Positions 48,911 through 55,800 of a stretch of DNA of 64,000 nucleotides are shown one piece after another; position 1 is the first letter of the stretch, and every line of letters starts with the position of its first letter. The translations under genes and the position numbers were made by a program. The DNA comes from Blastocatellia bacterium (lineage in GTDB: Bacteria > Acidobacteriota > Blastocatellia > HR10), in contig JANWYV010000033.1 in NCBI GenBank assembly GCA_025055075.1, positions 62,001 through 126,000 of the forward strand, in the 5' to 3' direction. The notes under the pieces are model-generated. The model worked only from the letters and a program-made list of their open reading frames with translations, was not told the origin of the DNA and did not search any database.

Positions 48911-50431
48911 TCAGCGCGATGGCGATTCTGCTCGCGCGCGCTCGGCCCACATCAGGAACGTTCGAAGCCGTTCCCGCACCGAGGGGATCGGATGCGGCAG
49001 GGGGAGCATCGAACCGATCTCGTAGATTGGGACGAGCTTGTCCAGCTCCGGTCCTGAGGGACGACCCGTGAGCGCGATCCGAATAGGGTGGAAGAGGGCA
49101 CGCCCCTTGCGCCCTGTCTGTTCGCGGACACGAGCGGCCGCCGCGCGAAAGGTCTCGGCCGTGATTTCGGGGACCTCAGCCAATTCCTGATCCAATCGGG
49201 CGAGGACGTCGAGGGCGCTCGGATCCTCTATGACTTCGCGAACTTCCGGATATGCGAGCGCGGCCGAGAGATCATAGTCGAAGATGATTCGCGTCTCCTC
49301 GACGATCTGCGAGAGGTGATCCAGATGAGTGAGCACGGCATCCACGACGCGGCGAAGCCATTCGCGAGTCGGCGCATCTACGGACGCGGGGATACGCCCC
49401 ACCTCCTGTAAATACGGCAGGACAGCCGTCACCAGCTCATCGAGCGGCTTGGCCTTCAGATACGCGCGGTTCATCCACTTGAGCTTCTGCAGATCGAAGA
49501 TCGCCGGCGCCTTGGAGACGTTCTCCAAAGCGAACAACTGCAGAAGCTGCTCGCGTGAGAGGATCTCGCCCACCTCTTGTGGAGGTGCCCAACCGAGCAG
49601 GGCGAGAAAGTTGAACAGGGCTTCGGACAGGTACCCGTGTTCGCGGAACTCGCGAAGGGCCGTCGCGCCATGTCGCTTGGAGAGCTTCGTTCCGTCTGCC
49701 CCGAGGATCGTCGAGAGGTGCGCGAAGACCGGAGGCGTTGCTCCTAAGGCCTCATAGAGCAGAAGCTGCCGCGGAGTATTCGGCAGATGCCCATCACCGC
49801 GGATCACATGAGTGATGCGCATGAGCAGATCGTCCACGACGACGGCGAAATTGTAAACGGGCCAGCCGTCGGATTTCAGGATGACGAAGTCGCCGATGAC
49901 CTCAGCCTCCCATCGCACAGAGCCGCGCACCACATCCTCCCAGACGATGGGCCCCGAGCGCACGCGGAAACGCAGGGTATGCGGTTCCCCAGCTTCCGCT
50001 CGTTCGCGCGCCTCCGAATCGGAGAGCGCGCGACACCGTCCCCCGTAACGATACGGACGGTTCTCCGCGCGCGCGCGTTCGCGCTCCCGTTCCAGCTCCT
50101 CCTCCGTGCAGAAGCACCGATAGGCCCATCCCGCATCTAGCAGCCGCTCGGCGTATTCCCGATAGAGCGTCAGGCGTTCGCTCTGCCGATACGGACCGAA
50201 ATCTCCACCGACATCGGGGCCCTCGTCCCAATCGAGGCCAAGCCAGCGCAAATCTTCCAGAATGTGCGCTTCGTACTCTCGGCGCGAGCGCTCCACATCC
50301 GTGTCCTCGATGCGCAGGACGAAGCGGCCGCCGTGCTGTCGCGCGAAGAGCCAATTGTAGAGCGCCGTTCGCACGTTCCCGACATGAAGCTCTCCCGTCG
50401 GACTCGGCGCGAAGCGTACTCGTACAGTCAT
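48911..50431 (-). CDS. gltX: Glutamyl-tRNA synthetase
   Basis: 506 residues, class I. FAPSPTGELHVGN (HIGH equivalent) at the start, IEDTDVERSRREY, YNFAVVVDD, IRGDGHLPNTPRQ and KLSKRHG (KMSKS equivalent), followed by the anticodon-binding helical domain. HIRGDGHL in place of the usual HVIRGEDHL is a small variation. The ATG at 50431 has AGAGGAAA nine bases before it; 39 extra upstream codons are not family-like. Whether it is discriminating or also charges tRNA-Gln cannot be read from the sequence. Confidence 0.95.
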   Translation of the reverse strand: MTVRVRFAPSPTGELHVGNVRTALYNWLFARQHGGRFVLRIEDTDVERSRREYEAHILEDLRWLGLDWDEGPDVGGDFGPYRQSERLTLYREYAERLLDAGWAYRCFCTEEELERERERARAENRPYRYGGRCRALSDSEARERAEAGEPHTLRFRVRSGPIVWEDVVRGSVRWEAEVIGDFVILKSDGWPVYNFAVVVDDLLMRITHVIRGDGHLPNTPRQLLLYEALGATPPVFAHLSTILGADGTKLSKRHGATALREFREHGYLSEALFNFLALLGWAPPQEVGEILSREQLLQLFALENVSKAPAIFDLQKLKWMNRAYLKAKPLDELVTAVLPYLQEVGRIPASVDAPTREWLRRVVDAVLTHLDHLSQIVEETRIIFDYDLSAALAYPEVREVIEDPSALDVLARLDQELAEVPEITAETFRAAAARVREQTGRKGRALFHPIRIALTGRPSGPELDKLVPIYEIGSMLPLPHPIPSVRERLRTFLMWAERARAESPSR

Positions 50432-50500
50432 CACCGCTTTCCTCTCCCCATTCCCGCTCTCGCGAGCGGCGCGCGAATTTCGTCTTCGGCCCTCGGGCTT

Positions 50501-50529
50501 ATTATAGTCGGAGGGGGCCTTGAATCGAA
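50501..50529 (-). promoter_or_regulatory. Possible promoter for gltX
   Basis: Minus strand reads TTCGAT (50529-50524), 17-bp spacer, perfect TATAAT (50506-50501), 70 bases before the gltX ATG. The -35 is weak. The -10 core also reads TATAGT on the plus strand, toward the NrdD-like gene. Confidence 0.45.
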
Positions 50530-50596
50530 GAGGGTTTTGAGATAGCATGGACGGCCACAGGGGGGAAGGGCGATCTTCCGCTGGTGGGGATGGATT

Positions 50597-52678
50597 ATGG
50601 CAGGGGACGTGGCGTGGTCACAAGAAGAAGCAGGATCGGATTCACAGCTGTACGTTCGCCGCTCCGATGAGCAACTCGCGCGCTTTGATCCTCAGCAGAT
50701 CGTGGAGGCGTTGGTTCGGGAAGCGCACGTGGATGTCGAGCTGGCGACGAAGATCAGCCTGGAGGTCAAAGAGGCGATCACGCACGCGGGCATCCGCACG
50801 CTCAACTCTTCACTCATCCGCGAGCTGGTGAACGTGAAACTCTTGGAGTACGGCCTGGAGGCCGCATATCGCGCGCATTCGCGACTCGGGGTTCCGCTCT
50901 ACGACGCCGATCGGATCATTCGGCAGAGTGCACGGGAGCAAGATGCCCCGCCGCATGGGCCGGAAGGCACGAGCCTCGTTCTCGCGGAAGCCATCAAGCG
51001 AGAATATGCGATTCGAGAGGTCTTCTCCGAAGCGGTCGCGGAGGCCCATCTGGCCGGAGCGATTCATATTCAAGGTCTGGGGATGGTGGATCGCCCCTAC
51101 GCTTTGGCCAGCTCCGTGGATTATCTCAAACGCTATGGGATCGTGTTGCCGCACGGGTTCGCGAGCGCGCGACCGGCGCGGCATCCCGAGGTCTTGCTCG
51201 CGCATGTGGTGAAATTCTCGGCGGCGCTCCATGGCTATTTGGCCGGGCCGGTCGTCTGGGATAGCCTCAATGTAGCGCTCGCACCGTATTTGGTGGGCGC
51301 TGAGGATCGCGATCTCCGCCAATTGGCGCAAGCGCTCATGTTCGAACTCTCGGCTCCGGCCGTCGCGCGAGGGGGGCAAGTCGTCGCGTGCGATGTGCAT
51401 CTGGATTGGGAGGTGCCGGCATATCTGGCATCTCGTCCAGCGCTCGGGCCTCAAGGTGAAGAGACGGGCGAACCCTATGCGGCATATGGGGAAGTGGCGC
51501 GCCGATTTTTACGCCAATTGCTGGAGGTCTATCGAGAGGGGGACGCCGAAGGGCGGCCTTTCCTCACCCCACGTCTCGTCCTGCATCTGACGGATCGGTT
51601 CGCAACGATCGAAGGTTATCGCGAGTTCCTCGAGCTCTTGTGCGATGTCCTCGTACATCGCGGCGGCGTGCGCCTGGTCTTCGATCGGGATGAGACACGA
51701 AGCTTCTTCTTGCGATTCGGCGTTCCTTTCGAGGTTGGCCATGAGCGTGCCGAGACCTGGCGATGGCGCACAGCTGTGCTGCAAGCGATCGCCGTGAACC
51801 TCCCCCGCATCGGGTATCACACCGAGGGCGACGTGCCCGCCTTCTTCGAACAGCTCACCCACGTGATGGAGTTGGCCGCGCAGGCGCATTTGGAGAAGCG
51901 CATCTTCTTGGAGAAGCTGATGGCGCTTGGGGAATCGGGGCCACTCGCTCTACTGGCCTTGCGCCGCTCGGAGATGGCGTTCCTCAAGCTCGCGTGGACA
52001 ACGCATCTCCTCTGTCCCTTCGGGCTGGACGAGGCGGTGTGGATGCTCACGGGCAAGCATCTGCACGAGTCCGATCAGGCCGTGGAGATGGCCTTGCGGA
52101 TTACGTCCCACTTGATGCGAGAAGCTGAGCGTCTGAGTGCGAAGCATAAGGTTCGGTTCATCGTGGCCGATTCGACGGACGAAGTCGCTGCTGCCCGACT
52201 GGCGCGCCTGGATTTGAGATCTCCGTTCGCCGCGCGTGCTGCTGCGACGGTCTCCGGGGATGTGGAGCGGAATGAGGTGTACTACAGTCGGCCCTTCAAG
52301 GTGCTCCCCCAGGCTGCCGTGCGCGCTCTCGAACGCGTGCGCATCGAAGGGTTGCTTCATGACCTCGGGCCGTTCGGCGTCACGACGCCAATCTGGCTGG
52401 GAGAAAAGGCGACGGCAGCAGAGCCGCTGGCAGCACTCATCTCACGCGGATTCTTCCAAACGCATTCCGCGGGCATTCTGCTGGCGCCGGAATTCACGCT
52501 CTGCATGGAGTGCGGGCGATACGCGCGCGGCCTCCACAAGCAATGTCCGTATTGTTACAGTTCGCGACTCGACGGATTGGCGCTCGGCACATATGCCTTC
52601 GGTCGCCTCTCGACGTGGAATCGTGGCCTTCTGGCTGAATGGCGGCATCGCTATCGCGTGGATGAGGACCTGGGGTGA
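50597..52678 (+). CDS. NrdD-like protein with ATP-cone, glycyl-radical motif altered
   Basis: 693 residues. An ATP-cone (about 18-105, VRRSDEQLARFDPQQIVEAL) precedes a barrel that aligns with class III ribonucleotide reductase: SLNVALAPYL, ARGGQVVACDVHLDWEVP, AVNLPRIGY, GLDEAVWMLTGKHLHES, and a C-terminal zinc site CMEC...CPYC (Cys636/639/650/653). The normal glycyl-radical RVxGY segment is replaced by YAFGRLSTWN, and the MCCRL-type cysteine motif before NLPRI is absent (it reads ETWRWRTAVLQ). No NrdG activase is adjacent. It may be a divergent enzyme or a non-catalytic nucleotide sensor. ATG at 50597, weak GGGGAT site. Confidence 0.75.
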   Translation: MAGDVAWSQEEAGSDSQLYVRRSDEQLARFDPQQIVEALVREAHVDVELATKISLEVKEAITHAGIRTLNSSLIRELVNVKLLEYGLEAAYRAHSRLGVPLYDADRIIRQSAREQDAPPHGPEGTSLVLAEAIKREYAIREVFSEAVAEAHLAGAIHIQGLGMVDRPYALASSVDYLKRYGIVLPHGFASARPARHPEVLLAHVVKFSAALHGYLAGPVVWDSLNVALAPYLVGAEDRDLRQLAQALMFELSAPAVARGGQVVACDVHLDWEVPAYLASRPALGPQGEETGEPYAAYGEVARRFLRQLLEVYREGDAEGRPFLTPRLVLHLTDRFATIEGYREFLELLCDVLVHRGGVRLVFDRDETRSFFLRFGVPFEVGHERAETWRWRTAVLQAIAVNLPRIGYHTEGDVPAFFEQLTHVMELAAQAHLEKRIFLEKLMALGESGPLALLALRRSEMAFLKLAWTTHLLCPFGLDEAVWMLTGKHLHESDQAVEMALRITSHLMREAERLSAKHKVRFIVADSTDEVAAARLARLDLRSPFAARAAATVSGDVERNEVYYSRPFKVLPQAAVRALERVRIEGLLHDLGPFGVTTPIWLGEKATAAEPLAALISRGFFQTHSAGILLAPEFTLCMECGRYARGLHKQCPYCYSSRLDGLALGTYAFGRLSTWNRGLLAEWRHRYRVDEDLG

Positions 52679-53259: not shown

Positions 53260-55308
53260 TCACCGCGAGAAGATTCCGGAGCCAAGAATGGGGGCGATGA
53301 CGAGGCTCACCACGGACATGAGCTTGATGAGGATGTTCATCGAAGGACCAGCCGTGTCCTTAAACGGATCGCCCACGGTGTCGCCCACGACGGCCGCCTT
53401 ATGCGCGTCGCTCCCTTTCCCACCGAATTCGCCCTTCTCAATATGTTTCTTGGCGTTGTCCCACGCTCCCCCAGCGTTTGCCATGAGTAGGGCGAGCATC
53501 ACGCCGCTCACGGTCGCACCAGCCAACATCCCGCCCAGCGCCTCTTTTCCGAAGATGAGCCCCACGAAGACAGGGGTCAGAACGGCCACCAAACCGGGCG
53601 TGATCATCTCCCTCAATGCTGCAATCGTGGAGATGTCAATGCAGCGGGCCGTGTCAGGCTTGGCGCGTCCTTCCATGAGCCCTTTGATCTCGCGGAACTG
53701 GCGACGCACTTCTTCCACCATCTTGAAGGCCGCGCGGCCCACCGAGGCCATCGTCGAAGCGGCGATGAAGAAGGGCATGGTGCCTCCGATGAAAAGGCCG
53801 ATGACGACATAGGGGCTCGTCAGATCGATCGTGGGAATCCTGGCCGCACTCTTATAGGCTGAGAAGAGTGCCAACGCCGTCAGCGCCGCGGACCCAATAG
53901 CGAATCCCTTGCCGACAGCCGCCGTTGTATTGCCCAGCGCATCCAAGCCATCGGTGATCCGGCGCACATCCGGGCCCAAGCGGCTCATCTCCGAGATCCC
54001 TCCTGCGTTATCCGCGATCGGTCCGTACGCGTCCACGGACATCACCAAGCCGATCGTCGCTAACATGCCGACGGCCGAGATGCCAATGCCGTAGAGCCCC
54101 GCGACCGTGTAGGAGAGCAGAACGGCGAGGCAGATCCCCAGAACGGGCAGGACCGTAGATTTCATTCCGACCGCGAGGCCCGTGATAATATTCGTCGCCG
54201 CACCCGTTGTCGCCGCGCGAGCGATTTCGAGAATCGGCTTCTTCGCCGTGTAATATTCGGTGATGTATCCGATGAGCAAACCCACCAGAGTCCCGCTAGC
54301 GAGCGCCCAGAAGGGACCGTAATAGACGGGGCTTTCCGGCAGGTCCAGATCGAGTGCGACGACAGCCGCCAGCGCTCCCGCGAGCATCAAAAGCGCTGCC
54401 AATGCTGTCGCCGTCCGCAGCACAGTGGCGGGATCGGCTTTCTTCAACAAACGCACCAACAGCACGCTGAGCAGCGAACTCACAGTTCCAATCGCTGCCA
54501 CGAGAAGCGGCAACACCATCCACGGTAGCCGATCTCCTGGCAGTGGGATCGTCGCCGCGATCGTGATCGTCGCGATGATCGAGCCGACGTAGGACTCGAA
54601 GAGGTCGGCACCCATGCCCGCCACGTCTCCCACGTTATCTCCTACATTGTCGGCGATCGTGGCCGGATTGCGCGGATCATCTTCGGGGATGCCGGCTTCG
54701 ACTTTCCCCACCAGATCCGCTCCTACATCAGCCGTCTTCGTGTAAATGCCGCCGCCGACGCGAGCAAAGAGGGCGATGGAGCTCGCGCCCATGGCGAAAC
54801 CGCTGATGATCATCGCCGTCTTATCGGGGGGGAAGCCGAGAAGCTGCGTGTACACGTAAAGAAGAAGGCCTACTCCCACTAACCCAAGGCTCGCCACCGA
54901 CATCCCCATGACGGCGCCTCCGCTGAAGGCCACCATCAGTGCAGCGCGTTGACCAACCCGGCGAGCTGCTTCGGCCGTGCGCACGTTCGCTCGCGTGGCC
55001 GCTTTCATGCCGAAGAATCCGGCTAAGAGCGAGCAGAGCGCTCCGAAGACGAACGAGAGCGCCGTCTTATTTCCTTCCGGGAGTCCAAAGAAGATCGCCG
55101 TCGCCACCACGAGGATGAAGATCGAGAGGATCTTGTACTCTCGCTTCAGGAAGACCATCGCCCCTTCGTGGATGGCGTTGGAGATTTCGATCATCACACC
55201 CTCTCCGGCCGGCTGCCGAACGACCTGCATATACGTGAGCGCCGCGAAGCCCAATCCCATCAGCCCTAAAAGGGCCGCGATGATCATTATGCCTGTTGCC
55301 TCGAACAT
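53260..55308 (-). CDS. hppA: Membrane-bound pyrophosphatase, K+-dependent type
   Basis: 682 residues, about 16 membrane helices. Couples pyrophosphate hydrolysis to outward H+ or Na+ pumping. The substrate loops [20 protein letters not shown] and [20 protein letters not shown] are intact. The segment [15 protein letters not shown] has Ala where K+-independent pumps have Lys, so this is the K+-requiring class, which includes Na+ pumps. The ATG at 55308 matches the family start; the frame continues upstream but is not conserved. PPi energetics fit with the pyruvate kinase and synthetases of a possibly energy-limited host, though that is inference. Confidence 0.95.
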
Positions 55309-55345
55309 AGGACCGCCCGACCTCCCCCCATGAATTGGTCGTGAA

Positions 55346-55374
55346 AGGCTAGCACACCCGCCCGATCTTTTCAA
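55346..55374 (-). promoter_or_regulatory. Sigma-70-type promoter for hppA
   Basis: Minus strand reads TTGAAA (55374-55369), 17-bp spacer, TAGCCT (55351-55346), with TG one base before the -10 (extended -10). The leader is about 30 bases with GGGAGG before the ATG at 55308. Confidence 0.45.
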
Positions 55375-55800
55375 GACCGACGTAAGCGCTCCAGATCTCA
55401 GCAAAAGAGGCGCACGAGAGAAGGCGAAAAAATCGTAGTGCGCTTCGTTCGAAAGATTCAACGAGGGTTGAAACCGTTTGATGCGCCAGATGCTCAGCCG
55501 ATCGAACTTCAAATCCGATCTCACCGCAGCCGGGATTCGCCGAGAGAGGTGACCTCCTTTGAGGCGCTGTAGTTCGACATTCCGTCCTCTCGCTCAGCGG
55601 AAGACTTCGCCTTTCCACGGAGAGACGGCTGAGATGCGATGGAGAAATGGCGAAGGTCAATGCATCAAGCCGCGCGGGGATGAGCGACAGTAAGCGAATC
55701 TGTTCGAATCAAAACGGAGCCGATGAGGCCGGCCATCGCGACCGCGGCGAAAGGCATGCTGTGAGAGCGCTCGCTCCACTTCAAGAAGTCCTGACGCCCA
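55375..55800. other. Intergenic region upstream of hppA
   Basis: About 425 bases between the hppA promoter and the sfsA stop. Short frames exist on both strands without ribosome sites or recognisable products. A GTTCGAATC near 55709 resembles a tRNA T-loop, but its flanks do not pair. I see no gene here. Confidence 0.45.

Follow-up and report, generated by a model that had tools for sequence, protein, structure and literature searches.

The product of an intact reading frame in a Blastocatellia bacterium (693 amino acids, hereafter X; positions 50597–52678, forward strand, of the window, the whole 64,000-nucleotide stretch analysed here) has the fold of the class III ribonucleotide reductase (RNR) NrdD. 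Its catalytic residues have been lost while selection on it has persisted, as is characteristic of a pseudoenzyme. We conclude that X is probably a conserved pseudoenzyme that descends from a class III RNR with an ATP-cone and most likely serves as a non-catalytic, ligand-binding regulator or scaffold. This reading draws its support from the loss of the catalytic residues, from the continued selection, and from the failure of any candidate activase to score over its cut-off. X has almost certainly taken on another job than RNR chemistry.

The frame contains no internal stop, and X is the only NRDD protein in the source genome (3.0 Mb, 98.8% complete). The Pfam NRDD family aligns to residues 120–685 (3.2e-70; 50954..52651, +), which the AlphaFold2 model likewise shows as the barrel and C-terminal domain, while the match to the Pfam ATP-cone is marginal (residues 19–94; 50651..50878, +; 6.3e-6, 27.1 bits against a cut-off of 25.8). 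X misses the cut-off of the NCBIfam NrdD equivalog TIGR02487, at 207.8 bits against 326.35. The model (mean pLDDT 87, pTM 0.84) superposes on the NrdD structure 4u3e with a VIA Z of 36 (rmsd 3.1 over 549 residues), and its top Foldseek matches are all NrdD; glycyl-radical enzymes such as PFL match at Z ~22, below the NrdD structures. Both the NRDD domain and the RNR/GRE barrel fold that mark a class III RNR are therefore present, by Pfam and in the predicted structure, respectively. Shared with the class III enzymes of P. copri (8p23), phage T4 (1h7b) and T. maritima (4coj), and with 4u3e, are the ten-stranded barrel, the C-terminal zinc domain, the N-terminal ATP-cone and an active-site Asn on the sixth strand. 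This residue, Asn401 (51797..51799, +; equivalent to P. copri Asn435), is invariant in X, in the short relatives described below and in catalytic NrdDs. The zinc site (Cys636, Cys639, Cys650 and Cys653, CxxC...CxxC; 52502..52555, +) is invariant in the short relatives as well as in X, where it is complete in 27/27 aligned members. An ATP-cone, a barrel and a zinc site had been proposed in a sequence-only reading of this DNA, and Pfam, the model and the alignment bear out all three; the comparison with NrdD structures which that reading had called for gives an NrdD fold, and by sequence alignment other residues stand at the radical Cys and Gly positions.

An obligatory thiyl radical is what defines an RNR. 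We read the residue losses in X from an alignment with the enzyme of Methanomethylovorans hollandica, with catalytic NrdDs from X's own phylum and with 27 Blastocatellia sequences that are 45–87% identical to window X. First, the first-strand redox cysteine, present in all catalytic NrdDs compared, is Ala169 in X (51101..51103, +) and Cys in 0/27 orthologues, the column being Ala, Ser, Thr or Leu in most of them. Second, the finger-loop Cys-Cys of the (M)CCR motif is replaced by Phe371-Leu372 within FFLR (370–373; 51704..51715, +), with no Cys in 27/27, so that both catalytic cysteine sites are absent throughout and the MCCRL segment is missing just as had been claimed. Third, the former glycyl-radical loop ALGTYAFGRLSTW (662–674; 52580..52618, +) carries Leu663 for the Arg and Tyr666 for the glycyl Gly of RVxGY. 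The Gly is gone in 24/27 members, and the three that have one never have it within RVxGY. The sequence-only reading was right that RVxGY is altered; it gave the segment as YAFGRLSTWN, which needs a small correction to LALGTYAFGRLSTWN. Its suggestion that Gly669 could still be a radical site does not hold, as this residue lies three positions past the radical position, in a column that is Ser in 15/27 and Gly in 10/27. Nor is changed chemistry through Gly669 supported, because the only cysteines invariant among the 27 aligned sequences are those of the zinc site, which leaves none to carry a thiyl radical. X has three non-zinc cysteines (265, 349 and 473), none of them invariant in the family; as alternative conserved cysteines, Cys265 was rejected with Cys in just 22/27, and Cys473 for not being invariant.

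These losses are family-wide and are no isolated mutation; being common to all orthologues, they exclude chance or sequencing error. They argue strongly that X would form neither a glycyl nor a thiyl radical and would not reduce nucleotides. That X has remained a glycyl-radical RNR whose residues are displaced appears extremely improbable to us and is largely contradicted, although the predicted NrdD fold and zinc domain would accommodate it and there is a precedent in T. maritima NrdD, an active enzyme in whose crystal structure the SCCR loop is displaced (PMC4493059). T. maritima NrdD, however, keeps both SCCR and Gly621, whereas in the X family all 27 members lack a CC pair, none of the non-zinc cysteines is invariant, and Gly is not conserved at the radical column. 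An activase is also lacking: NrdG did not score over the curated cut-off in the source genome or in any of the 118 class genomes (0/118).

The elements that hold the substrate have changed as well. In P. copri NrdD these comprise the NxN flap and the HxHD triphosphate motif (PMC11226230). The flap position in X (residues 113–117; 50933..50947, +) reads Arg-Glu-Gln-Asp-Ala, the motif being lost, and the HxHD position (157–160; 51065..51076, +) reads HIQG, a degeneration seen across the family, with most of the motif gone in 27 orthologues. In the ATP-cone the lid KRDG has become RSDE (22–25), and the equivalents of the P. copri lid residues Lys7 and Arg8 are Arg22, which is variable, and Ser23. 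The lid is also altered, however, in the catalytic archaeal NrdD of M. hollandica (RTTDG). This enzyme (WP_015313753.1, locus L106), from outside the phylum, was the longest catalytic match in a plasmid collection, at 25% identity over 97% of X. It resembles X in its cone (VRTTDG, LIREMVN...RIGTP) and in its ARGGQ and HES motifs, and has the same residue as X at 55 of the 119 positions that are near-invariant in the X family (27 aligned). In contrast to X, where none of these is intact, it has FCQDW, QCC, NENAN, HIHD and RVTGY. The same unusual cone in an enzyme with an intact active site implies that some of the change in the cone came before catalysis was lost. X had earlier been suggested to be a pseudoenzyme that senses ATP/dATP; the first part is supported by the retained fold and zinc site, the lost catalytic residues and the selection, while sensing through the cone is plausible, as judged from a cone whose fold is present and whose lid is changed.

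We scanned 297 genomes of the phylum; X orthologues, 46–60% identical, turned up in the same class. Another 23 loci came from a scan of GTDB species genomes and belong to Blastocatellia and acidobacterial metagenome-assembled genomes, Chloracidobacterium among them, and to bacteria HR08 and HR10. Among the 118 Blastocatellia genomes, NRDD occurs in 34, always in exactly one copy without internal stops. The carriers belong to six families (designated f1, f2, f3, f5, f6 and f7), and NRDD was not found in genomes of f4 or f8. Close viral or plasmid members were not found in searches of plasmid and viral sequences. The dN/dS ratio is 0.07–0.12 (Nei-Gojobori, 11 pairs including short relatives), from which we deduce strong purifying selection. 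A functionless, decaying relic of an anaerobic ancestor would account for the lost active site, but it would not be kept as uninterrupted single copies in six families at a dN/dS of ~0.1; the selection on X contradicts this explanation, to which we give almost no credence.

The source genome makes its dNTPs by other means, namely with two class II RNRs (NrdJ; L002, 924 aa, and L003, 593 aa). The genome-wide search for other RNRs that had been recommended gave these two and no second NrdD; a class I small subunit was not found in this genome, and the only NrdG-like sequence there was a partial match inside a 733-aa frame, which extends the earlier remark that no nrdG lies nearby to the whole genome at the profile cut-off. 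NrdG matches below the cut-off do exist elsewhere in the class, mostly in genomes without X. The NrdD-less f4 genomes encode up to several NrdG-like radical-SAM proteins (~85–121 bits against a cut-off of 126.1; L108–L111 and others), which amount to orphan activase-like proteins with no matching NrdD. NrdG-like proteins below the cut-off accompany X in two genomes, G415 (f7, up to 124 bits) and G399 (f3).

Neither NrdJ of the source genome has an ATP-cone, and apart from one sub-cut-off match the only cones encoded there are those of X and of a separate NrdR-like protein. X might, on this evidence, control the cell's RNR directly, for example by providing an ATP-cone in trans to cone-less class II enzymes. 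We consider such control improbable. X occurs with class II RNRs only in f1–f3, but in f5 it coexists with a class I RNR that bears a cone of its own, and many f4 genomes without class I RNR also lack X; simple cone supply in trans is contradicted by this co-occurrence across families. Moreover, no RNR gene adjoins X in the neighbourhoods read, and X does not appear to belong to an NrdR regulon, as none of 20 X genes tested has an NrdR box upstream (best sites 6–8 mismatches, window X 8, at shuffle level). An NrdR-box-like site, CCACAATATCTTGTGA, lies within ~250 bases upstream of the nrdJ of L002 (1054), with 3 mismatches where the best of 100 shuffles gave 4; the second nrdJ (L003) has no such site upstream.

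In two genera of the Acidobacteriota family f20, a shortened relative of ~590 aa is the last gene of an hrcA-grpE-dnaK-dnaJ-X operon, with a 4-base overlap onto the dnaJ stop (L045:8484-10304; L046:8486-10255; L047:8687-10450). It keeps the zinc site and a cone-like N-terminus, part of the barrel is deleted, and all radical residues are gone. The modified cone and linker (LIRELVN.KLIEY...RLG) are common to the short relatives and X. A model of the short relative was poor (pLDDT 51) and its fold was not used. As a sign of heat control we considered CIRCE upstream of the operon, where the canonical site went unmatched at up to 3 mismatches. The f20 genomes have further, more ordinary NrdD matches besides the short relative. 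Outside the class, a protein of family f71 (L044:7857-9989; also L143) is an NrdD relative 29% identical to X (L044); the L044 protein lacks the cysteines and the glycine, and its cone region is barely recognisable. A tree places X, the short relatives and the f71 protein together and apart from catalytic NrdDs with 99% SH-aLRT support, subject to long-branch warnings. Closer catalytic relatives probably exist in other phyla, and the losses may have occurred once or several times.

Gene neighbourhoods differ between lineages, and none of the neighbours is common to all of them, so that no pathway can be pinned down for X. In f1, gltX lies upstream on the other strand and a membrane pyrophosphatase gene downstream (6/6 loci); in the window these are 48911..50548 (−), divergent from X, and 53260..55524 (−), a pyrophosphatase-like gene named by inspection of its sequence. 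Neither arrangement is conserved beyond f1. gltX had been put forward as a conserved neighbour worth following; confined to one family, it offers no general clue and was rejected as a functional partner. The gltX frame as listed starts at 50548 (in window 50430–50597), and GltX itself (MTVRVRFAPSP...) starts further inside it, so the gltX–X gap would be longer than the listed 48 bases. In f7 and matching loci, thiD directly precedes X on the same strand in 10/10 cases, in four of which the called frames overlap by 4 bases, and carB follows X in 6 of the 10. In three loci of another group, purN lies upstream on the other strand. Linkage with dnaJ in f20 and with thiD in f7 and its matching loci suggests that the protein works in general metabolism or stress, and not in supplying dNTPs.

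The main rival to the pseudoenzyme reading, which we regard as unlikely though worth weighing, is that the barrel has been turned into a new, non-radical enzyme with His268, Asp270, His330, Asp363, Asn401 and the E433-K434-R435...E439 helix as its active site. In its favour, ~28 polar positions are invariant in X and different in Methanomethylovorans NrdD (among them His268, Trp271, His330, Glu433 and His505), on predicted barrel strands His268 stands in place of Thr/Gln and His330 in place of Asn/Ser, and one family couples X to the metabolic genes thiD and carB. So many new polar invariants, some of them on barrel strands, exceed the needs of a scaffold and could form a new active site. On the other hand, no neighbour points to a substrate, and the short relatives lack the segment with His268 and do not keep His330, yet are still strongly selected, which favours a non-catalytic common role.

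For such a non-catalytic role we propose that X, retained vertically, would fold like NrdD and probably dimerise in the same manner, its zinc site being structural. The remodelled barrel and ATP-cone may bind a ligand, probably a nucleotide, and X may then work as a regulator or scaffold by contacting other proteins. Nucleotide binding by X is putative, given that the lid of the cone and the motif for the substrate phosphate have both diverged. More broadly, and tentatively, X may represent a new functional class of RNR-fold protein in Acidobacteriota: either it would depend on a ligand, use no radical and link nucleotide state with proteostasis (dnaK-dnaJ-X) or with cofactor/pyrimidine metabolism (thiD-X-carB), or else its NrdD barrel would house a new, non-radical enzyme.

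Among the closest known systems is class III NrdD, from which X differs in lacking the finger-loop and first-strand cysteines, the glycyl Gly, the NxN flap and NrdG, and in its degenerate HxHD. NrdR, the ATP-cone repressor of RNR genes (PMC9110341, PMC12176259), likewise pairs an ATP-cone with a zinc module within a single protein, whereas X contains the full RNR barrel and its zinc domain is C-terminal. Loss of reductase activity has been described in the betaherpesvirus R1 (large-subunit) homologues UL45/M45, which are used for protein contacts (PMC5469499); unlike X, these are class I and viral, have different partners, and are pseudoenzymes of separate origin. For three Chloracidobacterium species, Table 1 of PMC12816986 records an 'NrdD-like paralog (Class III)' with 'no NrdG', without analysis of its active site, family or function. 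Since Chloracidobacterium loci carry X family members, this paralog is very probably one of them. We found no class III or bacterial family of RNR pseudoenzymes described in the openly searchable, non-subscription literature. If X is a pseudoenzyme, it would be the first described for an RNR in bacteria and in class III, within the literature searchable here. It provides a natural test of what an ATP-cone, a barrel and a zinc domain are capable of without the chemistry, and it means that NrdD annotations in genomes with X, and the anaerobic dNTP synthesis deduced from them, are wrong.
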